Source: an uncultured Bacteroidales bacterium (GTDB taxonomy: Bacteria; Bacteroidota; Bacteroidia; Bacteroidales; WCHB1-69). Taken from it: DNA of 64,000 bases. The stretch lies in contig CAMKLG010000011.1 of the NCBI GenBank assembly GCA_946413585.1, positions 1 through 64,000 on the forward strand, read 5' to 3'. Of the stretch, positions 10,391 to 62,301 are shown in pieces; position 1 is the stretch's first letter, and each line of letters starts with the position of its first letter. The position numbers were made by a program, and so were the translations under genes. Under the pieces are notes generated by a model that saw only the letters and a list, made by a program, of their open reading frames with translations, was not told the origin of the DNA and ran no database searches.

Positions 10391-12316
10391 ATGAGATTCA
10401 GAATCCTGTCCTTCGTCAAACGGTCGTTGGCCACGCGCATGAGCCTTCTCACCGTCTTTTTTGCCGCCATCATCCTGATTGCCGCATTGGGTTACATGTT
10501 CAACGTGTCGCGACAGGCTATCCGTAAAGAGGCCGTTGAACGGGCCACGAACCAACTCGAGAACACGGTCTTGCGTGTGAACAACATCTTGGACCATGTG
10601 GAAGTGGCCACCAACAACACCGCCTGGCTGATCAACCGCCATCTCGACTCGCCCGACCTCATGTTTGAGTATTCGCGCCGGATTTTGGAGAACAACCCCG
10701 ACCTCAATGGTTGCTCCATCGCTTTCGAGCCATACTTCTTTCCGGAGCGCGGTCGATATTTCTCCGCGTATTCCTACAATGACGATGGTGTGATCGAGAC
10801 CACCCAGGAAGGCAATGAACATTACGAGTACTTTTACTTGGACTGGTACCAACTCTGCAAACTGCTGGATCGTCCGGTTTGGACGGAACCATTCGTCGAC
10901 TATAATCCGGATGACATCTACTCCAAGGATATGATTGCTTCTTATTGCAAGCCGCTGAAAGACAAGGACGACAAGTATATCGGCACCCTTTCCGTCGATT
11001 TGTCGCTGTCATGGCTCTCCAACACCATCTCGGCCGTGAAGCCATACCCGAACTCTTACAGTATCATGATTGGTCAGGGTGGCACCTATTTCGTGCACCC
11101 CGACTCGACAAAACTTGTATATCAGACCATTTTCACCGAATCGATGGAGCATCCCGACACGGCCATGGTGAACTTAGGGCATGCCATGCAGCGCGGCGAG
11201 GCGGGTATGCGGCAGCTGAAAGTCAACGGCGAGGACTGCTACGTCTTCTACAAACCGCTCAGCACCACAGGCTGGAGCGTGGCCATTGTCTGTCCTGAGA
11301 GCGACATCTTCGGTGGGTTCAACAAGTTGCGCAGGTCTGTGACGGGTACTGTGGTCGGGGGACTGTTGCTGCTGATGCTGGTGTGCGGTCGGTTCATCCG
11401 CAATGAAATCAAGCCCCTCACGAAACTCGCCCGCCAGGCGGAGACCATCGCGTCGGGCGACTTCAACGTGACGTTGCCCGAAGACGGGCGCACCGACGAA
11501 ATCGGGCAACTGAGCGAATCGTTCACCCACATGCAGCATTCGTTGGTTACCTACATTGACGAACTGAAAACCACCACGGCGCAGAAGGCCTCCATCGAAA
11601 ATGAATTGAAGGTGGCCAGCGACATCCAGATGAGTATGGTGCCCCGCATGTTCCCGGCATTCCCCAACCGCAACGATATCGACCTCTACGCCTCGATGAC
11701 CCCGGCCAAGGAGGTGGGCGGCGACCTCTACGACTTTTTCATCCAGGAAGAAATCCTATACTTCTGCGTGGGCGATGTCTCCGGCAAGGGCATTCCCGCC
11801 AGCCTCTTCATGGCCGTCACGCGCAACCTCTTCCGCATCGTGGCGCAGCAGGGTCTTCCGCCCGCGGAAATCGCCAGCCATATCAACAACATCCTCGCCG
11901 TTGACAACGACCGAGGCATGTTCGTCACGATGTTCATCGGCAAAGCCGACCTGCGCACCGGCCACCTTGACTATTGCAACTGCGGTCACAACGCCCCTGT
12001 CCTTGACGGTGAATTCCTGAAAATGCAGTATGAAAACCAACCGTTCGGACTCTGGGAGGACGACCCCTTCTACGGAGAAAGCATCGACAACATCAAGGGC
12101 AGACAGTTCCTGCTCTACACCGACGGTCTCAACGAAGCCGAAAACGCCGAAAAAGAGCTCCTCGGCAATGACCGGCTGATAGAGCTGATGCAGGGTGCGC
12201 AAGATATGAGCGCCCGTCAGGTGGTGGACATGCTCAAAGCAGCCGTGGAGGAACACCGCGCCGGCGCAGACCCCAACGACGACCTGACATTGTTATGCCT
12301 GACGATTAAAGGTTAA
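10391..12316 (+). CDS. Membrane sensor phosphatase: Cache-like extracellular domain, HAMP, SpoIIE (PP2C/RsbU) domain
   Basis: Two TM segments, dCache-like region, IRNEIKPLTKLARQAETIASGDFNV HAMP, ASDIQMSMVPRMFPAFP...AKEVGGDLYDFF...GDVSGKGIPASLFMA...NDDLTLLCL. Confidence 0.9.
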   Translation: MRFRILSFVKRSLATRMSLLTVFFAAIILIAALGYMFNVSRQAIRKEAVERATNQLENTVLRVNNILDHVEVATNNTAWLINRHLDSPDLMFEYSRRILENNPDLNGCSIAFEPYFFPERGRYFSAYSYNDDGVIETTQEGNEHYEYFYLDWYQLCKLLDRPVWTEPFVDYNPDDIYSKDMIASYCKPLKDKDDKYIGTLSVDLSLSWLSNTISAVKPYPNSYSIMIGQGGTYFVHPDSTKLVYQTIFTESMEHPDTAMVNLGHAMQRGEAGMRQLKVNGEDCYVFYKPLSTTGWSVAIVCPESDIFGGFNKLRRSVTGTVVGGLLLLMLVCGRFIRNEIKPLTKLARQAETIASGDFNVTLPEDGRTDEIGQLSESFTHMQHSLVTYIDELKTTTAQKASIENELKVASDIQMSMVPRMFPAFPNRNDIDLYASMTPAKEVGGDLYDFFIQEEILYFCVGDVSGKGIPASLFMAVTRNLFRIVAQQGLPPAEIASHINNILAVDNDRGMFVTMFIGKADLRTGHLDYCNCGHNAPVLDGEFLKMQYENQPFGLWEDDPFYGESIDNIKGRQFLLYTDGLNEAENAEKELLGNDRLIELMQGAQDMSARQVVDMLKAAVEEHRAGADPNDDLTLLCLTIKG

Positions 12317-12360: not shown

Positions 12361-12573
12361 ATGGAAAATTTAACAAAAGAACAAATCGAACAAAAGAAAG
12401 AGCAACTCAAAAAGCTGTTGCAGGAGGCTAATGCTTTGAAGAACGAACTTGTATCCATGGGAGAATGGCCGATTGACGATGACGACCTCGACGGTGCCGC
12501 AGGTGGTGTCGGGCCTTTAACGCCTGGTCATCATTACACTTATGATGATGGTGTCGTAGGCGGCAGACCTTAA
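12361..12573 (+). CDS. Double-glycine leader precursor peptide 1 (70 aa)
   Basis: MENLTKEQIEQKKEQLKKLLQEANALKNELVSMGEWPIDDDDLDGAAGG|VGPLTPGHHYTYDDGVVGGRP; leader shared with four other small genes; ATG at 12361 rather than 12325. Confidence 0.85.
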   Translation: MENLTKEQIEQKKEQLKKLLQEANALKNELVSMGEWPIDDDDLDGAAGGVGPLTPGHHYTYDDGVVGGRP

Positions 12574-12603: not shown

Positions 12604-14745
12604 ATGAGTATTAAACGTTGTTTTTGGATATTCGCCTTGGTCGCGTTAGTCTTCGCCTCCTGCCGGAACAATGAAAGCAATGAAATGCTATCTCCGGCGG
12701 AAAAAAGGCTTATGGATGCAGATTCTGTGGCCCGTCGTGCCATTTTTTCGTTCGACCGAAATATCTTCTGGCAGGGCGACCCTAAACGGGCGGATTTCAT
12801 TGTTGACAGTCTGAAGCTCATTGTCGATAGTCTGGAGAAACGTGGTGACTTGACAGAGTTGGCCGCTGACGAGTTACGAGGTGAACTCTACTTATTCACT
12901 CTCCGTTCCTCGAAGGCCGAAGAGAGCTTTAGCCATGTGTGGGAAAAAATACCTCCCACGGATATCCAACAGTGGCATTACAAAGCCGCCGGCAATTTTC
13001 TTGCCTATCAGCTGTATATGAGGCACAACTACGAGGGATTCCTGCGTGTGGCGGTGCCTTTGATTGCTTGGATGGACTCTTTGGACACCGACAGCTGGAC
13101 AAAGAAGATGAGTCAGTTGTCGCCTTATTATGAGGATGGTTCCCACAGCACTTGGGGACAGCGAATGAATCTTTACTCGCTGTTAGGGTGTAGCTATCTG
13201 AAGCTGGAGCAACGCGACAAGGCAAAGGAGGTGTTGAATCAATTTGACACCTACAGCCGGAAGGTGCTCGCCGAGGATTCCTCCCGTATCAGTCCCCTGT
13301 TTGTCAACACCTACGCCAGGGTCAAGGACGCCTACGTAAGGGTGAAAGACTGGGAGGAGGTTAGCCGATGGCTCTGTATCCTTGACACGCTGGGGTACCT
13401 CTATGGGGTGAAAGAACCGGAATCTGAGATTTTGAAGATCTACAACATTTACGGGCATTTGGATGATGCCCTGCAGTTGTGGATTCAAGGGGAAGCGGAT
13501 TCCGCCGCCGTCGAATACGCTATGTTCATCAAAGACGCATCCAACGACTTGAATGCCATCATCCAAGCCAACGACCAATACCTGATGCCGGCAGAACGCT
13601 ATGAAGAAGCCGCCGAACACTACGACTACCTCGACTATTTCATCGACAAGCCTTGGTTAGAGGAGATCAGCGCCTACTATTTCCCCAAGCTCCGTGCCAA
13701 CTACTATGCAGGGCGCAAAGACACAGCCCTCAAAGTGGCCATGCAGATTGCCGATTTGTTCGACTCGGCATACTTCTGGCAGAAGAAGAGCCAGATGGCC
13801 GAAATGGCCACCATCTACGACACGCAGGGCAAGGAGATGGAGATAGCTCGCCAGCAGGCGAAACTATCGAAACAGCGGCTCATCGGGGTGCTTGTCGCCC
13901 TGTTGCTGCTCTCGGCATTCTTCATCATCTACTCGTGGTACCGCCGCAGAGCACAGAAGAGACTCGCCACCGCGCATGAACAGCTGAAAGCCGCCTACGA
14001 CCAACTGGAGGAGACCACTGCCGCGAAGGAGCGCATCGAGAGCGAACTGCGCATCGCCCGCGACATCCAGATGTCGATGGTGCCCAGCCTCTTCCCCGAA
14101 TACGAAGGGCTGGACATGTTCGCCGCGATGACCCCCGCCAAAGAGGTGGGCGGCGACCTCTACGGTTATGTCCTGCAGGGCGACATTCTCTATTTCTGTG
14201 TCGGTGACGTGAGCGGCAAGGGTGTGCCCGCCAGCCTCTTCATGGCCCAAAGCGCAAGACTCTTCCGCACCCTTGCCTCTGAGAACATGATGCCCGCCGA
14301 CATCGCCGTGCGCATGAACAACGCCCTGGCGGAAAACAATGAAACCGGCATGTTCGTCACCATGTTCATCGGGCAGCTCAACCTGAAGACCGGTCATCTC
14401 GACTACTGCAACTGCGGCCACAACGCCCCTGTCCTTGACGGAGAGTTCCTGAAGATGCAGTATGAAAACCAACCGCTCGGTCTGTGGGAGGACGACCCCT
14501 TTTACGGCGAGAGCATCGACGACATCCGGAACAAGCAACTGCTCGTTTACTCCGATGGCTTGAACGAGGCCGAGAACCCGCAGCAGGAATTTCTGGGCAA
14601 CGCCCGCCTTTTGGAATTGATGGATAGTGCTAAGTCACTCTCTTCCCAACAAGTGATCGGAATGCTCATGAACGCCGTGGAAGAACACCGCGCAGGTGCA
14701 GACCCCAACGACGACCTGACGTTGTTGTGTCTGACGATAGTATAA
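12604..14745 (+). CDS. Lipoprotein-anchored TPR-like/TM/coiled-coil protein with C-terminal SpoIIE phosphatase domain
   Basis: Lipobox-like LVFASC; helical repeats; TM LIGVLVALLLLSAFFIIYSWY; SpoIIE motifs RDIQMSMVPSLFP...GDVSGKGVPASLFMA. Confidence 0.88.
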   Translation: MSIKRCFWIFALVALVFASCRNNESNEMLSPAEKRLMDADSVARRAIFSFDRNIFWQGDPKRADFIVDSLKLIVDSLEKRGDLTELAADELRGELYLFTLRSSKAEESFSHVWEKIPPTDIQQWHYKAAGNFLAYQLYMRHNYEGFLRVAVPLIAWMDSLDTDSWTKKMSQLSPYYEDGSHSTWGQRMNLYSLLGCSYLKLEQRDKAKEVLNQFDTYSRKVLAEDSSRISPLFVNTYARVKDAYVRVKDWEEVSRWLCILDTLGYLYGVKEPESEILKIYNIYGHLDDALQLWIQGEADSAAVEYAMFIKDASNDLNAIIQANDQYLMPAERYEEAAEHYDYLDYFIDKPWLEEISAYYFPKLRANYYAGRKDTALKVAMQIADLFDSAYFWQKKSQMAEMATIYDTQGKEMEIARQQAKLSKQRLIGVLVALLLLSAFFIIYSWYRRRAQKRLATAHEQLKAAYDQLEETTAAKERIESELRIARDIQMSMVPSLFPEYEGLDMFAAMTPAKEVGGDLYGYVLQGDILYFCVGDVSGKGVPASLFMAQSARLFRTLASENMMPADIAVRMNNALAENNETGMFVTMFIGQLNLKTGHLDYCNCGHNAPVLDGEFLKMQYENQPLGLWEDDPFYGESIDDIRNKQLLVYSDGLNEAENPQQEFLGNARLLELMDSAKSLSSQQVIGMLMNAVEEHRAGADPNDDLTLLCLTIV
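13906..14696 (+). repeat. ~791-bp direct repeat, copy 1 (SpoIIE domain)
   Basis: Appears identical by eye to 19469-20259 at constant offset 5563; the reverse-strand ORF translations also match over the block. Confidence 0.85.
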
Positions 14746-15668: not shown

Positions 15669-18095
15669 ATGAAGAAATACTCAATAACCCTGTTTCTACT
15701 CTGCCTGATGTTTGCGGGTTATTCCCAAGTGAAATTGGACTATTCGGCAACGCCCAAAGTGAAGGCATCCGGTTTTACGGTCAAAGGACTTTCTGCGGCA
15801 AGCGCATACTTTTTGCACGATCTACAGCAGATGGAGGCGACCAAGGATCCTGCCGCCCAAAAAAGGTTATATGCCAAATTGCAGGATCGATACGGCATTA
15901 TGCAGGGGAGAGTGCCTGCGCTTATTGTGTTGGCCGATGGCAGGGCACTGTCAGATTTGGCAGCCTACGATGTGACCGTAGGAAGTGCCGCAGGCGGCAT
16001 CTACACAGCGAGGATCCCCTTGCACCGTTTTGCCGACCTGGCAGCGTCCGGAATCTGCAAAACCATCGATGTGGGTGAGAAAAACGAGCCCCACCTTGAC
16101 AAGTCCCGCGAGAATTTGGGCATCGACCAGATTCACGCGGGACTGCACCTGCCGCACGGCTATGACGGCACTGGTGTCGTAGTAGGCATCATTGACAGTG
16201 GCTTTGGGTACGGCCATCCATCGTTCTATGGTACGGATGGCCATTTCCGGGTGAAACGTGTATGGGAACAAAAGAGCACGACTGGCACACCTCCTGCAGG
16301 GTACAGTTACGGAACGGAATATACGACGGAGGCCGAACTGTTGGCTGCGGGAGCAGACTACATGAACGAAAACCATGGCACCCATGTGGCTGGAATTGCC
16401 GCAGGCTCGGGTGCCCCTTCGGGCGACGGCACAGCCTACCAAGGTATAGCTCCCGGAGCAGATTTGGTGCTTGTCGCCACAAGTTTTCTCGGTTCAGATG
16501 TTTGTGATGCCATTTCCTACATTTACCATTATGCGCAGTCTGTGGGAAAGCCCTGCGTCATCAACATGAGTTTTGGATCAACCCTACAATGTCATGAGGG
16601 ATTTGAACCAGACGATTTGTTCATCACATCCTTTGTGAATCAGCACCACGACAGTTTGGTCTTGGTGGCAAGTACGGGCAATGACGGTCTTATTAACGTT
16701 CATATACAAAAGCAGTTTTCCCCTGAAGACACCCTCCTGACTACTCATTTGCAATTCACTGCTGACAGCAACTTTTGGGGAGGTGTCTATCTGTATGGGG
16801 AAAGTGTTTTCAGCATTGCATTGACGTTGGTCAACACCACCACGCAGCAACAAGAGGATTTCACGGGATTCTTCACCGTAGATGTTGACACTTGCTTTTT
16901 TCAGACACTGTTTACGAGTGATGGCACACCTCTGTCCTGTGAATTTTGTTTCGAGCCGGACGACAGACTCTCACATCCGTTTGTTGGCACTTTTGGTATT
17001 CGCATCGACGGCCCCGCACCCAGCGGTAGGGAAGTGATACTCACCGTCAAATGCAATCAAGAGTCGGAGATACATGGATGGTGTCAGACACTGCTGTTCT
17101 CCGCAAGCGAATCAGTGGAAGAAGCGGTGGCCGGCGACAGCTGGTACACGGTAAGTGGTAAGGGAACCAACACTGACGCCGTCATTTCAGTCGGATCATA
17201 CGCCACCCGTCTTCACTACATCACGTATGAGGGAATCCATAAGTCGGGACGCAGCAATACGATAGGCGACATCTCCCTGTTTTCCTCCAAAGGGCCGACG
17301 ATGGATGGACGCACAAAGCCTGATATTACTGCACCCGGTGAAGTTGTCGTTGCCTCCGTCAATCGCTTTGCTGTTAATGAGTCCTCTTCTCCAATTTATG
17401 ACACCATCGAATGGTTCGGAAACATCGAATACTATAGCGGTTTTATGGGCACCTCTATGTCCTCTCCTATGGTGACGGGCATCGTGGCTTTGTGGTTGCA
17501 ACAGAATCCGTCGTTAGGTGTGGATTCTGTGCGCGCCATCCTGCATGGTACCGCCCATAACGATCACTACACCGGCAATGCCGCAGTGGTGCCCTCCAAT
17601 ATCTGGGGACACGGCAAGGTCAACGCCTACGGCGGATTGCCCACCAATACAGAACTTTACCTGGTTACCGCATGTGCAGAAGTGGATAGTATGGGCAGCG
17701 TGGACGGCGGCGGAGTGGTGACAGCAGGTGTGCGTACCCTCACTGCCATCCCCGGAGCCGACCACACTTTTGTAGCTTGGGAAGACGGCAGTACAGATAA
17801 CCCGCGTACTGTGTATGTCATCTGCGACACCCTCTTCATAGCCACTTTCGAAGTGTCGTCAGATTCTGTTGCAGTACCCGCATACACGGAAGAGACTCAT
17901 TACTGCCTCATTGCGCAAGGAGGGCGGCAAATCAGCATCTCCAACGCCGAAGGTCATTCTTTGCGTGTTTATGATATCACAGGTCGTCTGATTGTGAGTG
18001 GTCTGGACGCTAACGGCACCTACCGGATGCCTTCTGCGGGCGTGTATATTCTCCAGGTTGAAGGGTTCAGGCCACGGAAAGTGATGGTCAATTAA
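15669..18095 (+). CDS. S8 subtilisin-like serine peptidase with T9SS type A C-terminal sorting domain
   Basis: VVGIIDSGFGYGHPSF (Asp), HGTHVAGIAAG (His), MGTSMSSPMVTGIVAL (Ser); C-terminus LRVYDITGRLIVSG...GVYILQVEG. Confidence 0.93.
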   Translation: MKKYSITLFLLCLMFAGYSQVKLDYSATPKVKASGFTVKGLSAASAYFLHDLQQMEATKDPAAQKRLYAKLQDRYGIMQGRVPALIVLADGRALSDLAAYDVTVGSAAGGIYTARIPLHRFADLAASGICKTIDVGEKNEPHLDKSRENLGIDQIHAGLHLPHGYDGTGVVVGIIDSGFGYGHPSFYGTDGHFRVKRVWEQKSTTGTPPAGYSYGTEYTTEAELLAAGADYMNENHGTHVAGIAAGSGAPSGDGTAYQGIAPGADLVLVATSFLGSDVCDAISYIYHYAQSVGKPCVINMSFGSTLQCHEGFEPDDLFITSFVNQHHDSLVLVASTGNDGLINVHIQKQFSPEDTLLTTHLQFTADSNFWGGVYLYGESVFSIALTLVNTTTQQQEDFTGFFTVDVDTCFFQTLFTSDGTPLSCEFCFEPDDRLSHPFVGTFGIRIDGPAPSGREVILTVKCNQESEIHGWCQTLLFSASESVEEAVAGDSWYTVSGKGTNTDAVISVGSYATRLHYITYEGIHKSGRSNTIGDISLFSSKGPTMDGRTKPDITAPGEVVVASVNRFAVNESSSPIYDTIEWFGNIEYYSGFMGTSMSSPMVTGIVALWLQQNPSLGVDSVRAILHGTAHNDHYTGNAAVVPSNIWGHGKVNAYGGLPTNTELYLVTACAEVDSMGSVDGGGVVTAGVRTLTAIPGADHTFVAWEDGSTDNPRTVYVICDTLFIATFEVSSDSVAVPAYTEETHYCLIAQGGRQISISNAEGHSLRVYDITGRLIVSGLDANGTYRMPSAGVYILQVEGFRPRKVMVN

Positions 18096-18171: not shown

Positions 18172-18261
18172 ATGGATAATTTGACAAAAGAACAGATTGA
18201 ACAAAAGAAAGAGAAGCTCAAGAAGCTGATGCAAGATTCATCATTTATTAATCACAAATGA
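18172..18261 (+). pseudogene. Truncated precursor peptide 2: leader only, lost after ~21 residues
   Basis: MDNLTKEQIEQKKEKLKKLMQDSSFINHK*; absent from supplied ORF track; stop lies 1 nt before ATG 18263. Confidence 0.8.
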
Positions 18262-18262
18262 A

Positions 18263-20311
18263 ATGAGACACTTGTCCAAAATAGATATTGTCGCCGTAAT
18301 AGCGCTGACGGTGCTGTCAGTGGCTTTCTCAAGCTGCGGCCACAAAAAGCAGGCTGTTGAAATGACCGAAGCCAAGTATGACAGCTTGTTCGATGTAGTC
18401 TGGTACACCCGTGACACCATCATATTGCTCACCATTGACAGCCTTGAAACGGCGGGAGAATTGACCGAGAACAGGGCAGATTTTCTCCGTGGTGTGGCGT
18501 ACGACAGAAGTCGGGAGATACCACTCGGAGATCACTATTACAACAAGGTCTATCAGGCCGTGGATCCGGAAAAAGAGGGCTGGGATTTTTATTTACGGGT
18601 GGCGACCCGACTTTCACAGTTGCGAATGACTACCAGCGATAATAAAGGGGCCATAAAGGTGGCGGCCGAAGCCCTTGAGAAGGCGAAAGCAGCAGGCAAA
18701 CTGACCGATAATTATGAATTGGGATTATTGTGGAGTATAGCTGGTTGCCAATCCGCGCTTCAACTTCCCGAAGCCACTCAGACGAGTATGCGTGTTTATG
18801 AACTGCTGGAGAAGCAGGCGAAAGACAGAGGGGTGGAAATGACACCCAATCTGATGGTTTACAGGATGGTATTATGCGAAAGTTACATAGGGCAAGAGAA
18901 TTACGATGAAGCGGAGGTTTGGAACCAGCGTTTCGGAAAGGCCTTGACACAGTTGGATTCCACAACTTACGACAATTTAATTCATGAAAATGCATGGCAT
19001 TATCCCATGAATGAAATCCTCATATTGAAAGGTCAGGGGAAAGACAGTCTGGCGGATGCGGTATTTAGACAATCGTATGATCAACTCATGGAATTGCCTG
19101 AGGGAATGCAGGAAGTCGCTCTGTATTTGTTGGAAAACGAGCGATATGCCGAGGCCGCTGACATATTCGCTCTCATTGATACGACCATTCCTGCAGATAA
19201 CAAATATGGTCATCTGAATCTCGAAAATATCGAGTACAGCATCATTCCGAGACTCAAGGCCAACCTTGGCGCTGGCCGCACGGACACCGTAGTCTCCATC
19301 GCCCGCAAGATAGCGGACAATTATGAGAATGCATTTGCGGAATATAAAGACAAAAATGCCGCCGAGCTGGCCACCATCTACCAGACGCAGGAGAAGGATG
19401 CTGAAATTGCCCAGCAGCAAATCAAGCTGAGTCGGCAACGGCTGATTGGCACGCTGGTCGCATTGGTACTGCTCTCGGCATTCTTCATCATCTACTCGTG
19501 GTACCGCCGCAGAGCACAGAAGAGACTCGCCACCGCGCATGAACAGCTGAAAGCCGCCTACGACCAACTGGAGGAGACCACTGCCGCGAAGGAGCGCATC
19601 GAGAGCGAACTGCGCATCGCCCGCGACATCCAGATGTCGATGGTGCCCAGCCTCTTCCCCGAATACGAAGGGCTGGACATGTTCGCCGCGATGACCCCCG
19701 CCAAAGAGGTGGGCGGCGACCTCTACGGTTATGTCCTGCAGGGCGACATTCTCTATTTCTGTGTCGGTGACGTGAGCGGCAAGGGTGTGCCCGCCAGCCT
19801 CTTCATGGCCCAAAGCGCAAGACTCTTCCGCACCCTTGCCTCTGAGAACATGATGCCCGCCGACATCGCCGTGCGCATGAACAACGCCCTGGCGGAAAAC
19901 AATGAAACCGGCATGTTCGTCACCATGTTCATCGGGCAGCTCAACCTGAAGACCGGTCATCTCGACTACTGCAACTGCGGCCACAACGCCCCTGTCCTTG
20001 ACGGAGAGTTCCTGAAGATGCAGTATGAAAACCAACCGCTCGGTCTGTGGGAGGACGACCCCTTTTACGGCGAGAGCATCGACGACATCCGGAACAAGCA
20101 ACTGCTCGTTTACTCCGATGGCTTGAACGAGGCCGAGAACCCGCAGCAGGAATTTCTGGGCAACGCCCGCCTTTTGGAATTGATGGATAGTGCTAAGTCA
20201 CTCTCTTCCCAACAAGTGATCGGAATGCTCATGAACGCCGTGGAAGAACACCGCGCAGGCGCAGACCCCAACGACGACCTGACGTTGTTGTGCTTAACGG
20301 TTAGAGGTTAA
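18263..20311 (+). CDS. TPR-like/TM/coiled-coil protein with C-terminal SpoIIE phosphatase domain (paralogue of 12604..14745)
   Basis: Divergent N-terminus, near-identical C-terminal ~280 aa to the 12604..14745 product. Confidence 0.88.
   Translation: MRHLSKIDIVAVIALTVLSVAFSSCGHKKQAVEMTEAKYDSLFDVVWYTRDTIILLTIDSLETAGELTENRADFLRGVAYDRSREIPLGDHYYNKVYQAVDPEKEGWDFYLRVATRLSQLRMTTSDNKGAIKVAAEALEKAKAAGKLTDNYELGLLWSIAGCQSALQLPEATQTSMRVYELLEKQAKDRGVEMTPNLMVYRMVLCESYIGQENYDEAEVWNQRFGKALTQLDSTTYDNLIHENAWHYPMNEILILKGQGKDSLADAVFRQSYDQLMELPEGMQEVALYLLENERYAEAADIFALIDTTIPADNKYGHLNLENIEYSIIPRLKANLGAGRTDTVVSIARKIADNYENAFAEYKDKNAAELATIYQTQEKDAEIAQQQIKLSRQRLIGTLVALVLLSAFFIIYSWYRRRAQKRLATAHEQLKAAYDQLEETTAAKERIESELRIARDIQMSMVPSLFPEYEGLDMFAAMTPAKEVGGDLYGYVLQGDILYFCVGDVSGKGVPASLFMAQSARLFRTLASENMMPADIAVRMNNALAENNETGMFVTMFIGQLNLKTGHLDYCNCGHNAPVLDGEFLKMQYENQPLGLWEDDPFYGESIDDIRNKQLLVYSDGLNEAENPQQEFLGNARLLELMDSAKSLSSQQVIGMLMNAVEEHRAGADPNDDLTLLCLTVRG
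19469..20259 (+). repeat. ~791-bp direct repeat, copy 2 (SpoIIE domain)
   Basis: Matches 13906-14696. Confidence 0.85.
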
Positions 20312-20348: not shown

Positions 20349-20513
20349 ATGGGAAATTTAACAACAGAACAGATTGAACAAAAGAAAGAGCAGCTTAAGA
20401 AGCTGATGCAAGAGGCTAATGCCTTGAAGGATGAACTCGTGGCCGCAGGCGCATGGCCGCTCGGCGATGACGACCTCGACGGTGTGGCAGGTGGATCGAG
20501 GAGACCTCGATAA
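20349..20513 (+). CDS. Double-glycine leader precursor peptide 3 (54 aa)
   Basis: MGNLTTEQIEQKKEQLKKLMQEANALKDELVAAGAWPLGDDDLDGVAGG|SRRPR; too short for supplied ORF track. Confidence 0.82.
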   Translation: MGNLTTEQIEQKKEQLKKLMQEANALKDELVAAGAWPLGDDDLDGVAGGSRRPR

Positions 20514-20600
20514 CACTAAATGGGCTTTCGTGGAGGGATACTGCGCCGTGCCAACTAAAACAACGAATTGAATTCAGGCGAATGATATTCATTAATTTTA

Positions 20601-20608
20601 TATATTTG
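20601..20608 (+). promoter_or_regulatory. Putative -7 element TAtaTTTG for precursor 4
   Basis: attttatatatttgcacttctg, ~36 bp before ATG 20644. Confidence 0.45.
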
Positions 20609-20643
20609 CACTTCTGTTTTCTAACCCTTAAAATCAAACCATT

Positions 20644-20829
20644 ATGGAAAATTTGACAAAAGAACAGATCGAACAAAAGAAAGAGCAACTCAATAATCTG
20701 TTGCAAGAGGCAAAAGCCTTGAAGGATGAACTCGTAGCCGCAGGAGAATGGCCTATCGACGATGACGACCTCGACAATGTCGCCGGGATGGGCTTGCTCC
20801 CCATGGATATATTTGGCAAATTTCGTTAA
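20644..20829 (+). CDS. Leader precursor peptide 4 (61 aa), GG replaced by GM
   Basis: MENLTKEQIEQKKEQLNNLLQEAKALKDELVAAGEWPIDDDDLDNVAGMGLLPMDIFGKFR. Confidence 0.83.
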   Translation: MENLTKEQIEQKKEQLNNLLQEAKALKDELVAAGEWPIDDDDLDNVAGMGLLPMDIFGKFR

Positions 20830-20947: not shown

Positions 20948-21355
20948 ATGAAAAGAGAATTGATATTCAAAAATGAGGAACAGGAGTTGATGCGCGTTGC
21001 CGAATTCATGGAGAGCGTGTGCGACGAACTTCAACTCGACATGCACGTGGCTATGAAGCTTCAGGTGGCCATGGAGGAGATGGTGACCAATGTCATCTTC
21101 TATGCCTACCCCGAAGGCACCACCGCAGACATCTCCCTTACCGCGGAGAGTGACGACCATGAGGTGACTTTTGTGCTCTCTGACTCAGGGATGCCTTTCG
21201 ATCCGACGGCGAAAGAGGATGCGGACACTGAAACGAATCCAATGGATCGCGAGCAGGGTGGAATGGGAATCCTCATCGTGAAGAACATCATGAATGAGGT
21301 CTCCTACCAACGGCTAGGCGACACGAATCAGTTGACCATGAAGAAAAAATTATAA
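20948..21355 (+). CDS. RsbW/SpoIIAB-like anti-sigma-type serine kinase (GHKL ATPase)
   Basis: MKLQVAMEEMVTNVIFYAYPEG (N box), LSDSGMPFDPT (G1), EQGGMGILIVKNIMNEVSYQR (G2); ATG at 20948. Confidence 0.88.
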   Translation: MKRELIFKNEEQELMRVAEFMESVCDELQLDMHVAMKLQVAMEEMVTNVIFYAYPEGTTADISLTAESDDHEVTFVLSDSGMPFDPTAKEDADTETNPMDREQGGMGILIVKNIMNEVSYQRLGDTNQLTMKKKL

Positions 21356-21389: not shown

Positions 21390-21695
21390 ATGACTGAGAT
21401 TATTAAGGAAGAAGGAAAGACTATCGTAAAAACAGGTTCGCGCATCGACACATTGAATGCCGCACAATTCGAACAAGAGATCCAGCCCGCTTTGGAGCAA
21501 GGAGTCAATTTGGAGATTGACTGCACGGAGTTGGGATATATGGCCAGTTCCGGTCTGCGCATTCTGCAGGCCACGATGCGTACCGTCGTCCGCAGTCTTG
21601 GCGGCCAGATGAAGCTGACACATGTGAACGACGATATTTTCGACATTCTGAAGATGACCGGTTTTACCCGTCATATCACCGTTGAGAGGGCATAG
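21390..21695 (+). CDS. STAS-domain anti-sigma factor antagonist (RsbV/SpoIIAA-like)
   Basis: GSRIDTLNAAQFEQEIQPAL...DCTELGYMASSGLRILQATMRTV; SSGLR with phosphoacceptor Ser. Confidence 0.9.
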   Translation: MTEIIKEEGKTIVKTGSRIDTLNAAQFEQEIQPALEQGVNLEIDCTELGYMASSGLRILQATMRTVVRSLGGQMKLTHVNDDIFDILKMTGFTRHITVERA

Positions 21696-21698
21696 TGT

Positions 21699-22535
21699 AT
21701 GTCCAGCATATTTAACCAAGAGGCCCTTGCTGCATTGGACGACCACAGCGAAGAGCGGGAGATGGCGCGTGTGACGTCACCGAAAATCCAGCTGGTGCTC
21801 GCCGCCATGGTCGCCATGATTGTGGTGGTGCTTTTTTGGTGTGTTTTTGGAACCATCAATTATAAAGTGACCGCGCAGGGGGTGGTATTTCCTTTCGGGG
21901 AAGCCTCGCCGGTGAGTGTGCCCTATGAAGGGACCGTCAGTCGTTGTCTGGTGGGGCATGGCGAGGCCGTGTCTTACGGGACCCCGGTGGTGGAAATCCG
22001 CACACCCCTCTCCACCACGGCGGTGGCTGCGCCGCGCGACGGGGTGGTCATCTCCACCCTCCAGCCTGGCACGCCGTTCAAGGCCGGGGAGCCGGTGGCC
22101 TGGCTCTTGCCCCAGGCGCAGAAGATGAGCAACCGCGAGATACTCTGCTATGTGACGTATGACGGGCTGCGCGACCTCAAAAAGGGCATGCAGGTGCAAG
22201 TCACCCCCGCCAACCGGCAACGTGAACGCTGGGGCTACGCTTACGGCACCCTGGTGGGCATCGAACAATACCCGACCAACCGTCAGGAAATCGTCAATCG
22301 TGTGAAACTCGACCCCTTGGCCGCCTTCATCGAGGACGGGCAAGCCGTTTACGAGGTTCGCGTGACCTTAGATGAGAAGGATGGGAATCTCGTGTGGAGT
22401 CGCGAGAAGAGCCAGAATATCAAAATCGGCAACGGTTCCCTCTGCAACATCCAGATCATTACCAGAAAGAAACCAGTGTGGCGTGTGCTCTTCGGAGCCA
22501 TAGACAACGCCACTGAAACAATAATGGGAAACTAA
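21699..22535 (+). CDS. HlyD-like membrane protein, NHLP/NHLM secretion protein type
   Basis: One TM, biotinyl-lipoyl-like hairpin (VSVPYEGTVSRCLVGHGEAVSYGTPVVEI); immediately precedes the C39 ABC transporter. Confidence 0.75.
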   Translation: MSSIFNQEALAALDDHSEEREMARVTSPKIQLVLAAMVAMIVVVLFWCVFGTINYKVTAQGVVFPFGEASPVSVPYEGTVSRCLVGHGEAVSYGTPVVEIRTPLSTTAVAAPRDGVVISTLQPGTPFKAGEPVAWLLPQAQKMSNREILCYVTYDGLRDLKKGMQVQVTPANRQRERWGYAYGTLVGIEQYPTNRQEIVNRVKLDPLAAFIEDGQAVYEVRVTLDEKDGNLVWSREKSQNIKIGNGSLCNIQIITRKKPVWRVLFGAIDNATETIMGN

Positions 22536-22544
22536 GCTGTCGTT

Positions 22545-24695
22545 ATGGCCAGGAACAAGGGGGCAAAAGTGGCAAAAGTGCCAATGGTGATGCAGATGGA
22601 AGCGGTGGAATGCGGAGCCGCTTCGTTGGCCATGATTCTGGCTTATTACGGGAAGTGGCTGCCCTTGGAGCAGGTGCGGGCAGATTGCGGGGTGAGTCGT
22701 GATGGGTCCACCGCGAAGAGCATTCTTCGGGCCGCACGCAACTATGGCCTCGATGCCAAAGGCTTCCGCATGCCCCCTGAAGCATTAGAGGGCAAACAGC
22801 CCGCCATCATCCATTGGAATTTCGATCACTTCGTGGTCTTCCGAGGCTTCGACCGCAAGGGCAACGCTTGTCTGAACGACCCAGGCTCCGGCCCCGTGAA
22901 GTATCCCCTCGAAGAGTTCCGCAAGCATTTCACCGGTGTCTGCCTCACCTTCTCCCCGACGGAAAAGTTCGAGAGAAGCGGCCAGCAGACGAGCATTTTG
23001 TCGTACATCCGCCGGAACATGAAAGGTTCGCGCGAAGCGTTCTGGCTCACCTTCATCTTCGCCCTGATGGCCGCATTTGTGGCTCTCATCACCCCGGTTT
23101 TCACCCGTATCTTCTTGGATGAGATTCTTACAGGCAACAAGAATGATTGGGTTTCGTACTTTTTCGTCGCCATGGGCACGGTTGCTCTTTATCAATTCTT
23201 CGTGGTGCTTCTGAAAAGCCGCTACGCCAAACGGGTGGCGGGTTCCTTGGCATTGAAGGGGAACAAGGAGTATCTCCGGCATCTGTTCCGATTGCCCATG
23301 TCGTTTTTCGCCATGCGGCACGTCGGCGACTTGCAACAACGTATGCACTTGAACCAGACCATCACCCATTCGCTGGTGGAGGTCATCGCCCCGCAAGCCA
23401 TCAACATCGTATTACTCACTCTTTACGTCATCCTGATGTTTTCCTACTCCATCGGGTTGACTATCATCGGCATTGTGGCCGCCGTCTTGAACCTGGCTTT
23501 GGTGAAATATTTCGCGGATCAACGCATCAACCTCACCCGATCCATGGAACAGAGTGTGGGAAAATACGTGTCAGCAACCGTCTCTTGCATTGACAATATG
23601 GAGAGCATCAAGGCGGCAGGCGCGGAAACGGGTTTCTTCAAATATTGGAGCGGACTCTGGGCGCACAAGTTCAATGTCAACAACAACGTCGCCAAAGAGC
23701 AGGTTTGGGTTTCCATTCTGCCGGTTGTCGTCACCGGACTGGTGAATGTGCTGGTGTTGGTGTTAGGGGCCTTCCTGATCATACAAGGCGAGATGACTGT
23801 CGGTATGCTCATGGCTTTCCAAGGATTCATGGGGGCGTTTCTCGCGCCCGTGAACGAGATTGTGAACGCCACGCAGACTATCGTGGAGATGCGCAGTCAG
23901 ATGGAACGGGTGGAGGATGTGATGAAATACCCGGAAGACCACCGCGACATGGAAGGCGAAGTGGTTCAAGGCAAGTTGGGCGGCCTTTTGGAGCTGAAAC
24001 ACGTGACGTTCGGTTATTCGCCGCTCCAGCCTCCTCTCATTGAGGATTTCAACCTGCGTGTCGAGCCCGGCCACAGTGTCGCCTTCGTCGGCACCTCCGG
24101 TTGTGGCAAATCGACCTTGGCCAAGCTCATCTCCGGACTCTACAAGCCCTGGAGCGGGGAAATCCTGTTCGACGGACGGCCCATCGAGAGCATCTCCAGC
24201 GAGGAGTTGACCAATTCAGTAGCCGTCATCGACCAGAATGTGGTGCTCTTCGACGACACGGTGGCGCAGAACATCCGTATGTGGGATCCCTCCATCGAGG
24301 ATTTCACCATGATGATCGCTTGCAACGATGCACAGATCCGCGCCGACATTGTGAGCCGTCCGGAAGGGTTCGGCACCAAGATCGTCAAGGGCGGTCAGAA
24401 CTTCAGCGGCGGACAGCGGCAGCGCATGGAGATTGCCACGGCACTCGCCAAGGAACCCGCCATCCTCATCATGGACGAGGCCACCAGCGCCCTCGACCCC
24501 AAGACCGAGGACGAGGTGATGACCCGCATCCGCCGCATGGGTCCGACGCAGATTATCGTTGCCCACCGCCTCTCCACCATCCGCGACTGCGACGAGATCA
24601 TCGTCATGGACCAAGGCAGGATCCTGCAACGCGGCCGGCATGAGGAATTGATCAATGAAGAAGGGTTTTACCGGAAGCTGATGAGGAGCGAGTGA
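22545..24695 (+). CDS. Peptidase C39 - ABC permease - ATPase (NHLM_ABC1-like peptide exporter)
   Basis: C39 domain VPMVMQMEAVECGAASLAMILAYYG with Cys, DHFVVF His, NDPG Asp; TM domain; GTSGCGKSTLAKLI and FSGGQRQRMEIATALAKEPAILIMDEATSALD. Confidence 0.93.
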   Translation: MARNKGAKVAKVPMVMQMEAVECGAASLAMILAYYGKWLPLEQVRADCGVSRDGSTAKSILRAARNYGLDAKGFRMPPEALEGKQPAIIHWNFDHFVVFRGFDRKGNACLNDPGSGPVKYPLEEFRKHFTGVCLTFSPTEKFERSGQQTSILSYIRRNMKGSREAFWLTFIFALMAAFVALITPVFTRIFLDEILTGNKNDWVSYFFVAMGTVALYQFFVVLLKSRYAKRVAGSLALKGNKEYLRHLFRLPMSFFAMRHVGDLQQRMHLNQTITHSLVEVIAPQAINIVLLTLYVILMFSYSIGLTIIGIVAAVLNLALVKYFADQRINLTRSMEQSVGKYVSATVSCIDNMESIKAAGAETGFFKYWSGLWAHKFNVNNNVAKEQVWVSILPVVVTGLVNVLVLVLGAFLIIQGEMTVGMLMAFQGFMGAFLAPVNEIVNATQTIVEMRSQMERVEDVMKYPEDHRDMEGEVVQGKLGGLLELKHVTFGYSPLQPPLIEDFNLRVEPGHSVAFVGTSGCGKSTLAKLISGLYKPWSGEILFDGRPIESISSEELTNSVAVIDQNVVLFDDTVAQNIRMWDPSIEDFTMMIACNDAQIRADIVSRPEGFGTKIVKGGQNFSGGQRQRMEIATALAKEPAILIMDEATSALDPKTEDEVMTRIRRMGPTQIIVAHRLSTIRDCDEIIVMDQGRILQRGRHEELINEEGFYRKLMRSE

Positions 24696-24730
24696 TTATG
24701 GTTTACGGTTTAGGAGTTATAGTCGGAAAT

Positions 24731-24830
24731 ACCCCAATATAATTGAATATAATTCCTTAAGCAGCCCCGTCAGGGGCAAGAGCTCGGTAGCCAGGGGCAG
24801 GCGTGAGGAACGAACGCTGCAACCCCTGGG
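24731..24830. repeat. Bacteroidota intergenic REP-like element, copy A
   Basis: accccaatat...ccttaagcagccccgtcaggggcaagagctcggtagccaggggcaggcgtgaggaacg...cccctggg; shares a core with 27919-27994. Confidence 0.8.
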
Positions 24831-24874
24831 AGAAAAAGAGGAAGAAATGAATTGTGAATTGATATTGAGTTAGA

Positions 24875-27043
24875 ATGGCAATATATTTGAACCAAATCAA
24901 CAAACGTCGTGCGGCCGAACGGGCTGCCATGGCTGAAGTGAACGAGAAGACGAGCCAACGGCTTGGACTTTTCGGCAGTAAGCGTGTGGTGCCTCAGAAC
25001 GACGAGAGTGCGTTGCGTCAGGTGCTCGAAGCCTTGGAAATCCAGGATTACGAGCTGGAGGACAACGACATGGTCACGCCGGAGGAACAGCTGACAGGCA
25101 TCCTTCGTCCGCGCGGCATTATGATGCGCGACATCCAGCTTCGGGGCGATTGGTGGAAAGAGTGCATCGGGCCGCTCTTGGGCTATACCACGGACGGACG
25201 GTTGATAGCCCTCATGCCGACCAAAACCGGCTTAGGATACCAATACCGCGAGCAGGACGGCACCATTCGCAAGGTGGGGCATCGCGAGATGGAGAAAGAA
25301 CTGAAACCCAAAGCCATCACCTTCACCAAGGCCTTGCCGCTTACCCCGCTTCGGGTCAAGGACCTCCTCGGGTTCACCTGGAGTGTCATTTCCGGGCCCA
25401 ATGCTCTGCTCTTGGTGATTTGCGCTCTTGTGGTGGTGCTGCTCGCCATGTTCACCCCCATGGCCAACAAACTCATCTTCGACACCGTGATCCCTACGGG
25501 TGACGCTTCCGGCTTGTTGCCCATCACCGGTCTCCTCATCGGAGCAACGCTCAGCACATTGCTGTTGACACTCACCCGCAATCTTTACATCATCCGAATC
25601 CGGAACATAGCGGAAATGCATGTGCAGAATGCCATCATGGCTCGCACATTCCTGCTCTCCCCGACCTTCTTCTCGAGAAACCCCAGCGGTGAACTCTCCG
25701 AGAAGCTGAATAACGTCTCCACGCTCGCCACCCTCCTCAACGAAGCGATGGTGGGTGCCCTGTTAAACGCGGTGTTGAGCGTCATCTATCTCATTCAGGT
25801 CAACATTTATGGAGGCAAGCTGTTTTGGCCGGCAGTAGCCGTGATTGTATTGCAGTATGGTGCGCTCCTCCTGAATTACCGCAGGGCTGTTTATGTGCAG
25901 AACAACTACACGGAGCGGGTAGCCAAACTCAGCGGTCTGGAGTATAACCTTTTCGCGGGTATCCAGAAATTGAAACTGACGGGCAGCGAGACTCGCGCCT
26001 TTGCCCGTTGGCTCGACCACTACAGTGAAACGGCCCGGTTCCTCTACAATCCCGCTCTCAAGAGTCGCCTTTATCCTGCCTTCACGGCCTTTTTAGGCAT
26101 AGGCGGCACCATGTTCATCTTCTGGAGCACCCTCTCCAACGGTGTCTCCACCTCCGACTATATCGCCTTCAGCTCTGCTTTCGGCATGATGACCGCTGCC
26201 ATCACCCAATTGCAGCTGGTGATACCGAACCTGTCACAAATCAAGCCTCTGCTGGAGAGCGTGAAACCCATTTTGGAGGAAGTTCCGGAGATGGAAGACA
26301 AGGCCCCCCAGGTGGAGGATCTCTTTGGCGGTATCGAGATATCCGGTCTCTCTTTCCGTTATCAGGAAGATGGGCCGATGATTCTCGATGACCTCTCCCT
26401 CAAAATCGAGCCCGGCGAGTATGTTGGCATCGTGGGGAAGTCGGGCTGCGGAAAATCTACCCTGATAAGATTGCTGCTCGGCTTTGAGCAGCCGCTTTCC
26501 GGGGGTATTTATTATGACAATTACGACTTGGCGAAGGTCGATAAGGCCTCGCTGCGCCGCAAGATCGGTTGCTGTTTGCAAAGCGGAAGCCTCTTCACGG
26601 GCGACCTCTTCCACAACATCACCGTCACCGCGCCGTGGGCCACGCACGAGGACGCTTGGGAAGCGTTGAGGATGGCCAGTTTGGAGGACGATGTGCGCAA
26701 AATGCCGATGGGACTCTTCACGTTGGTCAGCGAGGGCGGCGGCGGGTTGAGCGGCGGACAGAAACAGCGCATTCTCATCGCACGGGCCCTGATTTCCAAA
26801 CCCGACATTCTCTTCTTCGACGAGGCGACCTCGGCCCTCGACAACATTGCCCAGAAGACCGTCAGCGACAATCTCGACGAGCTGATGTGCACCCGCGTGG
26901 TCATCGCCCACCGCCTCTCCACCATCCGCCACTGTGACCGCATCATTGTACTCGACAAAGGCAAAATCGCCGAGGAGGGAACCTTCGAGGAATTGATGGA
27001 AAACAAAGGATTGTTCTACGAAATGAGCCTCAGACAAATATAG
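24875..27043 (+). CDS. ABC permease/ATPase (NHLM_ABC2-like, no C39 domain)
   Basis: N-terminal RPRGIMMRDIQLRGDWWKECIGPLLGYTTDGRLIALMP is characteristic of NHLM ABC2; GKSGCGKSTLIRLLLG; LSGGQKQRILIARALISKPDILFFDEATSALD. Confidence 0.9.
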   Translation: MAIYLNQINKRRAAERAAMAEVNEKTSQRLGLFGSKRVVPQNDESALRQVLEALEIQDYELEDNDMVTPEEQLTGILRPRGIMMRDIQLRGDWWKECIGPLLGYTTDGRLIALMPTKTGLGYQYREQDGTIRKVGHREMEKELKPKAITFTKALPLTPLRVKDLLGFTWSVISGPNALLLVICALVVVLLAMFTPMANKLIFDTVIPTGDASGLLPITGLLIGATLSTLLLTLTRNLYIIRIRNIAEMHVQNAIMARTFLLSPTFFSRNPSGELSEKLNNVSTLATLLNEAMVGALLNAVLSVIYLIQVNIYGGKLFWPAVAVIVLQYGALLLNYRRAVYVQNNYTERVAKLSGLEYNLFAGIQKLKLTGSETRAFARWLDHYSETARFLYNPALKSRLYPAFTAFLGIGGTMFIFWSTLSNGVSTSDYIAFSSAFGMMTAAITQLQLVIPNLSQIKPLLESVKPILEEVPEMEDKAPQVEDLFGGIEISGLSFRYQEDGPMILDDLSLKIEPGEYVGIVGKSGCGKSTLIRLLLGFEQPLSGGIYYDNYDLAKVDKASLRRKIGCCLQSGSLFTGDLFHNITVTAPWATHEDAWEALRMASLEDDVRKMPMGLFTLVSEGGGGLSGGQKQRILIARALISKPDILFFDEATSALDNIAQKTVSDNLDELMCTRVVIAHRLSTIRHCDRIIVLDKGKIAEEGTFEELMENKGLFYEMSLRQI

Positions 27044-27049
27044 TATAAC

Positions 27050-27934
27050 ATGTTGAATATGAACACTATAAAAAACATAATTTTCATAACGGCAGTGATG
27101 GCTTTGCTGGCGGGCTGCGGTAAGAAAGAGATGCCTGTGGATGCCACGAAGGCAGCATCCTCGCCCACAGAAAAAGCCGCCGATGCTGAAGAGGATGTGC
27201 CGGATGCAAGGCTGACCACGATAGGCAAAGTGGTGGCCACCCGATACGCCGACCTGGCCTTCGAGACGGCGTTGCCCATCGAACGTGTGCTGGTTCGCAA
27301 CGGACAGCATGTCAAGCAGGGGCAAACCCTTGCCGTGCTGGAGGTCTTCAAGCTACGCAACGCCATCGAGCAGCAGGAGCAAGCCATCGAGAAGGCGCAG
27401 TTAGAGATGGAGCAGGCCGATTTGAAAATGCAGGATGTGATTATCACGCAGGGTTATGACCCCGACAAGGCCTCCTCGGTGCCCGAAAAGGTGAGGCACA
27501 ACGCCGACGTGAAGTCCGGTTACGCCTTGTCGAAGAGTGAACTTGCGGCCGCGCACACACGACTTGCGGCCGCCCAGCATGAGCTGCGAAGCGGAACACT
27601 GACAGCCCCGTTCGACGGCGTGGTGGCCAACCTCAGTGTCCAAGCCCACCAGCTGGCACAACCCAGTCAGGTGGTCTGCCGCGTGATTGATGACAAGGAA
27701 ATGCAGGTCGAGTTCCACGTGATGGAAACCGAGCTGCCGCTTTTCAAGACAGGCACGGAGGTCACAGTGATCCCCTTGGTTGATAAAACAGCCCGTCACA
27801 AGGCCGTGGTCAACGAAATCAACCCGATGGTCGATGCCCAGGGCACCGTCACCATACGCGCCCGCCTCACCACAGCCACAGACCTGTTCGACGGGATGAA
27901 TGTGGAGGTGATTAGAATACCCCAAATTCCCTAA
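27050..27934 (+). CDS. RND/HlyD-type periplasmic adaptor lipoprotein
   Basis: Lipobox VMALLAGC; ERVLVRNGQHVKQGQTLAVLEV; SGTLTAPFDGVVANLSVQ. Confidence 0.88.
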   Translation: MLNMNTIKNIIFITAVMALLAGCGKKEMPVDATKAASSPTEKAADAEEDVPDARLTTIGKVVATRYADLAFETALPIERVLVRNGQHVKQGQTLAVLEVFKLRNAIEQQEQAIEKAQLEMEQADLKMQDVIITQGYDPDKASSVPEKVRHNADVKSGYALSKSELAAAHTRLAAAQHELRSGTLTAPFDGVVANLSVQAHQLAQPSQVVCRVIDDKEMQVEFHVMETELPLFKTGTEVTVIPLVDKTARHKAVVNEINPMVDAQGTVTIRARLTTATDLFDGMNVEVIRIPQIP

Positions 27935-27994
27935 GCAGCCCCGTTAGGGGCAAGAGTTCGGTAGCCAGGGGTCAGGCGTGAGGGACGAACTCAG
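27919..27994. repeat. Bacteroidota intergenic REP-like element, copy B (overlaps end of preceding CDS)
   Basis: accccaaattccctaagcagccccgttaggggcaagagttcggtagccaggggtcaggcgtgagggacgaac. Confidence 0.8.
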
Positions 27995-28040
27995 TATTTG
28001 GGATGAGAAGGGAATCAATGATTATGAATGATGAATTAAT

Positions 28041-29513
28041 ATGAGATATCGGATTTTTTTTGGTTTATGGGTTTTGATGGTTTTCGGGGGTGGCACGGGC
28101 TTTGCGCAGCGGAAGGTGGTGCTTGACCTGGAACGCGCCGTGCGCCTGGCCACCGACAGTTCGCTCACGGCGCAGAAACACCAGAGCGTGTACGACATCT
28201 CGCGCTATCAATACCTGTCGTGGGTTGCCACCCGAAAGCCGCAGATCTCCTTGGAAGCCACCCCTTTCCTGCATGAGCGGTACATGACTCGGCGCTATCT
28301 TTCGTTCGAGGACATCGACGAATTCCGGATGCAGCAGGACATCTATTCCCAGGCGGGCATCACTATCACGCAAGCTATGGAGCCGTGGGGTGGCGAGTTC
28401 TATGGCTCTTCACAACTCGGTTTCCTTCACACGTTCGGCGAGATCAGCCAAAACCAATTCATGACCATCCCGATTGCAGTGGGATACCGTCAGAATCTAC
28501 TTTTCTACAACCCATGGAAATGGGCAAAGAAGATCGAACCGTTGAAGCTCAGTCGCGCCGAGCAGGAGCTTTCCTACGGCATCGAGACGGCGAGTGAGCA
28601 GGCGGTGGAGAAATTCTTCAACTTGGCCATGGCTCAAGACGGTTTGCGCATGGCGGAGAAGTTTCTCGCGTCGTGCGATACCATCTACGCCATTGCCGAA
28701 CGCCGTTTCAACATTGCCAGCATTTCTAAAGCGGAACTTTCCATTCTCCAATTGGACAAGACCAACGCCCGCATCGCACTCGCCAATGCGCGTATCGCCC
28801 ACACTCGTGCCATGCAGGAGTTGGCGACTTACCTCGGGATGGACCGTTCCACATACCTAGAACTGGAAGTTCCCGACCTTATGCAGGGGTTGCGCATCGA
28901 CACTGAGGAGGCGGTACGAAATGCCCGCGAGAACAATCCCCGCTACATGGAGAGCCGTCAGACCACCGAGGAAGCACGCCGCGATGCCGCAAAAGCCCGT
29001 GTGGAAAAGAATCTCAACCTGAGTCTGGATGTCAGCATAGGCCTCAACCAGGTGGCATACCGCTTTGTGGACGCCTACATGCACCCGCTTTTGCAGGACA
29101 TGGCGATGGTGACGCTCTCCGTGCCGATCGTTGATTGGGGAAAGCGCAAAAACGCGTACATGGCCGCCATGAGCAAGGTGGAGGCCGCCGAACGTGCTGA
29201 ACAGGAGGTCGCCCGCGACACGGAACTCGACGTGATGCTGACGGTCAGCGAGTTCAACGAGCAGCAGACCATTGTGGAAGCCTCCCAAGAAGCACTGAAC
29301 ATTGCGGAAGAGGCGTACAATCAGACCCTTCTCCGTTTTATCAAGGCACAGGCGAACACCACCGACCTCTCTTTGGCGCAGACGAACTGGCTGACCGCCC
29401 AGCAGAACAAAATCGCCAGCCTGCAGAATTATTGGATCACCTACTACCGCCTGCGCCGTCTGACCCTTTATGACTATCAGCAAAGACAAGTTATCCGGTA
29501 TGTTCGCGAATAG
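28041..29513 (+). CDS. TolC-family outer membrane protein
   Basis: Signal peptide; coiled-coil repeats RYMESRQTTEEARRDAAKARVEKNLNLSLDVSIGLNQ; VPIVDWGKRKNAYMAA. Confidence 0.9.
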   Translation: MRYRIFFGLWVLMVFGGGTGFAQRKVVLDLERAVRLATDSSLTAQKHQSVYDISRYQYLSWVATRKPQISLEATPFLHERYMTRRYLSFEDIDEFRMQQDIYSQAGITITQAMEPWGGEFYGSSQLGFLHTFGEISQNQFMTIPIAVGYRQNLLFYNPWKWAKKIEPLKLSRAEQELSYGIETASEQAVEKFFNLAMAQDGLRMAEKFLASCDTIYAIAERRFNIASISKAELSILQLDKTNARIALANARIAHTRAMQELATYLGMDRSTYLELEVPDLMQGLRIDTEEAVRNARENNPRYMESRQTTEEARRDAAKARVEKNLNLSLDVSIGLNQVAYRFVDAYMHPLLQDMAMVTLSVPIVDWGKRKNAYMAAMSKVEAAERAEQEVARDTELDVMLTVSEFNEQQTIVEASQEALNIAEEAYNQTLLRFIKAQANTTDLSLAQTNWLTAQQNKIASLQNYWITYYRLRRLTLYDYQQRQVIRYVRE

Positions 29514-29578: not shown

Positions 29579-29761
29579 ATGGAAAAACTGACAAAAGAAC
29601 AAGTTGAGCAAAAGAAAGAACAGCTCGTGAAGTTATTAAAAGAAGCCCAAGTCCTGAAGGACGAGCTCATGGCCGTGGGGGAATGGCCTCTTGACGAGGA
29701 CGATCTCGACAGCGTCACCGGCGGAATATTCGTAGGCGGCCAACAAAATGATTGGATATAA
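29579..29761 (+). CDS. Double-glycine leader precursor peptide 5 (60 aa)
   Basis: MEKLTKEQVEQKKEQLVKLLKEAQVLKDELMAVGEWPLDEDDLDSVTGG|IFVGGQQNDWI. Confidence 0.85.
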   Translation: MEKLTKEQVEQKKEQLVKLLKEAQVLKDELMAVGEWPLDEDDLDSVTGGIFVGGQQNDWI

Positions 29762-58043: not shown

Positions 58044-58090
58044 TCTTTATTTTTCATTCTGCATTCATATTTAGTTTTGTTTCTCCTTGT

Positions 58091-58108
58091 GACGCAAAAT
58101 TTTGCGTC
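58091..58108. repeat. Palindrome gacgcaaaattttgcgtc
   Basis: Direct reading; related to 60771-60798. Confidence 0.85.
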
Positions 58109-58121
58109 TCTACCCCTCCTC

Positions 58122-60731: not shown

Positions 60732-60770
60732 TGTTTTGTCGTATATTCGTTTATGTTATTATTTCGCGGT

Positions 60771-60798
60771 GTAGAGACGCAAAATATTGCGTCTCTAC
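60771..60798. repeat. Palindromic element gtagagacgcaaaatattgcgtctctac
   Basis: 12-bp arms, 4-nt loop; intergenic. Confidence 0.88.
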
Positions 60799-60818
60799 AG
60801 TTCTCTTTATTCGTCGTT

Positions 60819-62138: not shown

Positions 62139-62301
62139 TGGAAACATTTTTTCAACTTTTACCATATACATTTCATCTTGCAAAGATGCAACTGTTTTTA
62201 ATTAATACAATATAATGTGGAGAAAAATTGTGTGGAGACAGACTTCAGGTTTCAGGTTCCAGGTTTCAAGTTTCAGAGAACACCTGACACCTGATATGGA
62301 G

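Follow-up and report, generated by a model that had tools for sequence, protein, structure and literature searches.

Introduction

The closest described relatives of the locus analysed here are the NHLM/NHLP export systems (TIGR03794, TIGR03796 and TIGR03797), in which the same HlyD-ABC1(C39)-ABC2 set serves several precursors with double-glycine (GG) leaders. Our locus differs from them in its leader, which is of neither the Nif11 nor the nitrile-hydratase type, in cores that, across the family, have 5-39 residues and in that no modifying enzyme was recognised. Within Bacteroidales, GG leaders also occur with C39 transporters in the bacteroidetocins and in PCAT-linked RiPPs; unlike the precursors described here, the bacteroidetocins are class IIa-like killers, and the surveyed RiPP loci carry modifying enzymes (PMC6671954, PMC10352776). 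LahT of the Lachnospiraceae lah cluster has the closest solved C39 domain (6mpz), its leader residues at -4, -7 and -12 agree with ours, and one protease there likewise serves many precursors with diverse cores (PMC6363468). Cleavage by LahT150 depends on these three residues, and in vitro the enzyme cleaved a 13-residue leader followed by merely AASL (PMC6363468). The lah precursors differ from ours in having Nif11 leaders and much longer cores (LahA4 and LahA7 exceed 2 kDa).

A second system invites comparison. Rap proteins of Bacillus are cytosolic, their Phr peptides are exported by Sec and re-imported, and the Rap phosphatase is not of the SpoIIE type. Phr pentapeptides bind the TPR domains of Rap, and their second residue is consistently a positive one (PMC3601957). 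SRRPR, the predicted product of the gene studied here, and LRGPR, its counterpart in one relative, are both pentapeptides with Arg at position 2; moreover, the gene adjoins a phosphatase with a TPR-like domain, and Rap was among the weak fold matches. In contrast to Rap, the proposed sensor here would be periplasmic and its phosphatase is of the SpoIIE type, and we describe the likeness to Rap-Phr (RRNPP) as a resemblance, with no claim of membership.

A precursor gene with a five-residue core

The window, that is, the whole 64,000-nucleotide stretch of rumen Bacteroidales DNA that was analysed, encodes four intact precursors (p1 to p4) and one decayed remnant of a single family, beside an NHLM/NHLP-type exporter (Table 1). 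Re-reading and translation bore out the 54-codon ORF of the initial annotation, now p2, which starts with ATG and ends VAGGSRRPR-TAA; it reads MGNLTTEQIEQKKEQLKKLMQEANALKDELVAAGAWPLGDDDLDGVAGG followed by SRRPR, and a second in-frame TAA lies two codons past the first (20517-20519). The family leader claimed for it was also upheld, with 61-77% identity to the leaders of the other three intact precursors and E = 8.6e-24 against the family consensus leader. Judged by this homology and by its orthologues, p2 is a real, cross-species-conserved precursor gene of the GG-leader family. Structure prediction gave a helix at residues 6-32, a short helix at 40-46 and then an extended GG-SRRPR tail.

Table 1. 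Precursors, exporter and regulatory genes, with positions in the window.
Feature	Coordinates	Strand	Basis or remarks
PP2Ca, dCache/HAMP/SpoIIE phosphatase	10391..12316	+	upstream of p1
Precursor p1	12361..12573	+	core VGPLTPGHHYTYDDGVVGGRP (21 residues)
PP2Cb, SpoIIE phosphatase	12604..14745	+	lipoprotein-type N-terminus, helical TPR-like domain, TM; PF07228 2e-40, model, fold search
Decayed leader remnant	18172..18261	+	MDNLTKEQIEQKKEKLKKLMQDSSFINHK; broken within leader
PP2Cc, diverged sensor	18263..20311	+	same SpoIIE phosphatase half as PP2Cb
Precursor p2, 54 aa	20349..20513	+	49-aa leader and SRRPR core; translation, leader homology, orthologues in five species
p2 leader	20349..20495	+	ends DDDLDGVAGG; A at -3, V at -4, L at -7, L at -12
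p2 predicted core SRRPR	20496..20510	+	same DNA in four species, LRGPR in RUG140
p2 double in-frame stop, TAA-CAC-TAA	20511..20519	+	kept in 5/5 orthologues (alignment)
Precursor p3	20644..20829	+	core (G)MGLLPMDIFGKFR; GG pair short of one Gly codon in the window
HATPase_c_2, anti-sigma-factor-kinase type	20948..21355	+	PF13581 9e-26
STAS protein, antagonist type	21390..21695	+	PF01740 8e-14
NHLM-type HlyD adaptor	21699..22535	+	TIGR03794 3e-32, below curated cut-off
ABC1 with C39 peptidase, predicted GG cutter and exporter	22545..24695	+	TIGR03796; LahT150 6mpz 8e-59
ABC2 of NHLM exporter	24875..27043	+	TIGR03797 683 bits, cut-off 709
Membrane-fusion protein (MFP)	27050..27934	+	TIGR01730 5e-32
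TolC-family outer-membrane protein	28041..29513	+	TIGR01844 1e-12; conserved synteny
Precursor p4	29579..29761	+	core IFVGGQQNDWI (11 residues)

The initial annotation had called the core unlike the others. SRRPR is indeed the shortest and most basic that we saw, but the sibling cores are short too: 21 residues in p1, 13 in p3 (12 if it is cleaved at its altered site), 11 in p4 and 7 in one relative (LILPRLS). Cores of the whole family span 5-39 residues, and those of its Prevotella members 11 to 39. An apparent four-residue core in RUG10713, FPRT, was artefactual and due to the end of the locus; complete, this core reads FPRTSPVLPPL. A second GG site within p1 and p4, which would free smaller peptides, was rejected because Asp or Gly at -7 breaks the LahT rule (PMC6363468).

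At the p3 cut site, RUG140, RUG13515 and the window read VAG-M, and VAGGM is kept in RUG182 and RUG312; the loss of Gly may impair the site. Decayed leaders ahead of PP2Cc were seen in the window and in RUG182 (L056, G030:C95:1938-1991), and the two match.

Beyond the window set, the whole genome contained no further convincing family member. Pfam and NCBIfam models gave no above-cut-off match for the leader family, and the Nif11 and nitrile-hydratase leader models of NCBIfam matched none of the four window precursors. The GG-leader family is thus absent from Pfam and NCBIfam. With five residues, the core of p2 is extreme. The Bacteroidetes -33/-7 promoter pattern matched at two other places in the window, which does not exceed the chance expectation.

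The exporter and its C39 peptidase

A complete exporter (21699-29513) consists of HlyD, ABC1, ABC2, MFP and TolC, with precursors on both flanks. We class it as an NHLM/NHLP export system: ABC1 scored 901 bits to TIGR03796 (cut-off 853), and HlyD and ABC2, which scored below their cut-offs, are adjacent and in order. The C39 domain of ABC1 (PF03412, 3e-32) had LahT150 as its best match. Neither the scanned proteins nor the ORF list included a recognisable peptide-modifying enzyme, so the locus is not classed as a RiPP cluster.

We class p2 as a putative C39/double-glycine precursor: its leader ends in GG and fits at -4, -7 and -12, and the locus encodes a cognate C39-ABC protein. Because the C39 domain is nearest to LahT150 and the p2 leader fits the LahT rule at all three positions, cutting and export of SRRPR by the ABC1 system are mechanistically plausible. 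In such a scheme, the helical p2 leader would dock onto the C39 domain, which would cut after GG and free SRRPR; the peptide would exit by the conduit that HlyD/ABC1/ABC2 and MFP/TolC form, and it might act outside as a small unmodified peptide, as a signal more likely than as a killer.

Distribution and orthologues of p2

The leader was found in 5 of 41 genomes of the same genus, a count upheld at a stricter cut-off, and exactly these five carry both the PP2Cb sensor and an NHLM ABC1 at cut-off level. A GTDB scan extended the set to one more closely related species (RUG13515) and to several Prevotella genomes from the rumen; in the latter, the order precursor-HlyD-ABC1-ABC2-MFP-TolC recurs with 56-80% protein identity. 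Among 393 genomes sampled across the order, the leader matched only in the window's own genome, and no relatives were found among viral contigs. In the searches made, the family was seen in rumen Bacteroidales and Prevotella genomes only.

The window, RUG182, RUG13515 and RUG538 encode SRRPR with identical core DNA; in RUG140 the core is LRGPR, with the stop at the same codon. In all five orthologues the core is followed by TAA-NAC-TAA, and the starts of p2 and p3 lie exactly 295 bp apart. The initial annotation had proposed an extreme signal peptide or a degraded core; orthologues with a longer core would have revealed the latter. None of these five species-level orthologues (the window included) has a longer core, and all stop at the same codon; a nonsense or frameshift truncation confined to one strain is therefore rejected, and the signal version is compatible with the data. 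No outgroup orthologue of p2 was found.

In RUG312, the p2 upstream region leads directly into the p3 core. This p2/p3 chimera indicates that RUG312 lost p2 through recombination between the p2 and p3 leaders, and p2 is therefore dispensable there. The window is also identical to RUG140 over the 130 bp past the p2 stop (20514-20643); since ABC1 dS between the two is 0.94, this identity suggests cross-species exchange of the segment.

Selection on leader and core

Variable sites in the p2 leader fell at codon position 3 in 10 of 16 cases (p=0.016), and nonsynonymous changes were fewer than under random placement (p about 0.03). The p2 leader is under constraint, unlike the relic at 18172, which is broken inside its leader. 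In the core and stop, 2 of 18 sites vary, about the same rate as in the downstream non-coding DNA (15/130); both core changes are in RUG140 and both are nonsynonymous. With 15 nt being too few, selection on SRRPR was not detectable. Purifying selection acts on the cores of p1 and p4, with pN/pS of 0.38 and 0.07, respectively. When the downstream DNA was shuffled, 33% of the shuffles gave a core of five residues or fewer, and variable sites past the p2 stop showed no codon periodicity (4, 3, 3).

Interpretation of p2

We tentatively favour the reading that p2 is a working double-glycine precursor and SRRPR its small, unmodified and secreted product, which most likely serves as a signal and not as a killer. 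It draws on the five-codon core and double stop kept in five species, the constrained leader, the co-occurrence of leader, PP2Cb sensor and ABC1 in the same 5 of 41 genomes, the gene order recurring in Prevotella, the C39 domain nearest to LahT150, the constrained p1 and p4 cores and the lack of a recognised modifying enzyme. The sequence itself shows the gene and its leader family, a core and stop that are conserved, the exporter and, in synteny, the SpoIIE, HATPase and STAS genes; from these we infer that p2 would be expressed, cleaved and exported and would signal. Against a working p2 we counted the undetectable selection on its core, the frequency of such short cores among shuffles, the loss of p2 in RUG312 and a length of five residues, far below that of typical GG-peptide cores.

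The main rival, of appreciable though smaller probability, is an ancient core loss, in which frameshift or recombination shortened the core to five residues before the five species diverged. On this view p2 would now encode little more than a leader, as a passive relic kept by recombination with neighbouring leaders or as a decoy or regulator that occupies the C39 site. Short stops are common by chance, as the shuffles indicated, leaders recombine at this locus, as in the RUG312 chimera, and the window and RUG140 are identical past the stop despite 12 differences between their p2 leaders and the divergence of ABC1. In addition, a 26-codon +1 frame (VDRGDLDNTKWAFVEGYCAVPTKTTN) is open after GG in four of the five orthologues. 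However, RUG140 has a TGA in this frame and codon periodicity is lacking past the stop; it is therefore unlike a recent reading frame, and a hidden +1-frame core that is still read is unsupported. No relative was found with VDRGDLDNTKWAFVEGYCAVPTKTTN as its core, and the p2 leader is still constrained, which also argues against this loss.

An antimicrobial role, with p1 to p4 as an NHLM-type multi-peptide bacteriocin and SRRPR as one small cationic member, is improbable. In annotation, NHLM/NHLP exporters count as exporters of bacteriocins, and basic residues generally suit membrane or intracellular targets; however, the unmodified cores of 5-21 residues are neither as long nor as hydrophobic as class II bacteriocins, the neighbourhood contains no recognised immunity gene or modifying enzyme, and the linked regulators are of the SpoIIE/HATPase/STAS kind. 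Programmed or unnoticed frameshifting into a longer +1-frame product is very improbable: the frame is open in four species, but the TGA in RUG140, the missing codon-position signal and the GG codons, at which no slippery site was recognisable by eye, all speak against it.

If p2 yields SRRPR, the peptide would rank with the smallest that a C39/ABC exporter releases. It would also suggest that short peptides serve as signals in rumen Bacteroidales, from which, to our knowledge, few peptide signals are known. Even with a relic core, the locus exhibits leader-to-leader recombination that swaps and deletes cores between species.

Linked phosphatases and flanking genes

Three SpoIIE-type phosphatases, a HATPase_c_2 protein and a STAS protein lie upstream of the exporter, and PP2Cc ends 37 bp upstream of p2. 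The linked SpoIIE-HATPase-STAS module is a direct place to seek a receptor. The PP2Cb model had a mean pLDDT of 63, and its fold matches were TPR proteins including Bacillus Rap; these matches were weak, with E of 0.003 or higher and TM of about 0.2, and TPR profile matches were sub-threshold. In the phosphatase half, PP2Cb and PP2Cc are 96% identical in DNA over 935 bp, apparently through a domain swap or gene conversion; the two N-terminal halves resemble each other only remotely.

In a further-reaching view, p2 could belong to a Gram-negative counterpart of Rap-Phr, in which SRRPR and its siblings would be exported under guidance of their leaders and sensed periplasmically by the TPR-like domain of the adjacent SpoIIE phosphatase, which would then reset a STAS/HATPase partner-switch; we consider this unlikely. 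In this view, the constant phosphatase half with its diverging receptor domains would parallel the constant leader with its varying cores. Of six genomes tested, two carried PP2Cc, that of the window and RUG182. Because SRRPR follows PP2Cc in the window and PP2Cb in RUG538, where no PP2Cc was found, a strict one-to-one pairing of SRRPR with PP2Cc is rejected.

A subtilase (15669-18095) lies between the two phosphatase copies, and its C-terminal tail resembles, by eye, a T9SS sorting domain. On the minus strand, 47408-56554 encodes a 3048-aa repetitive secreted protein, followed at 56562-62183 by Fib_succ_major-type domain proteins, one of which was confirmed by Pfam.
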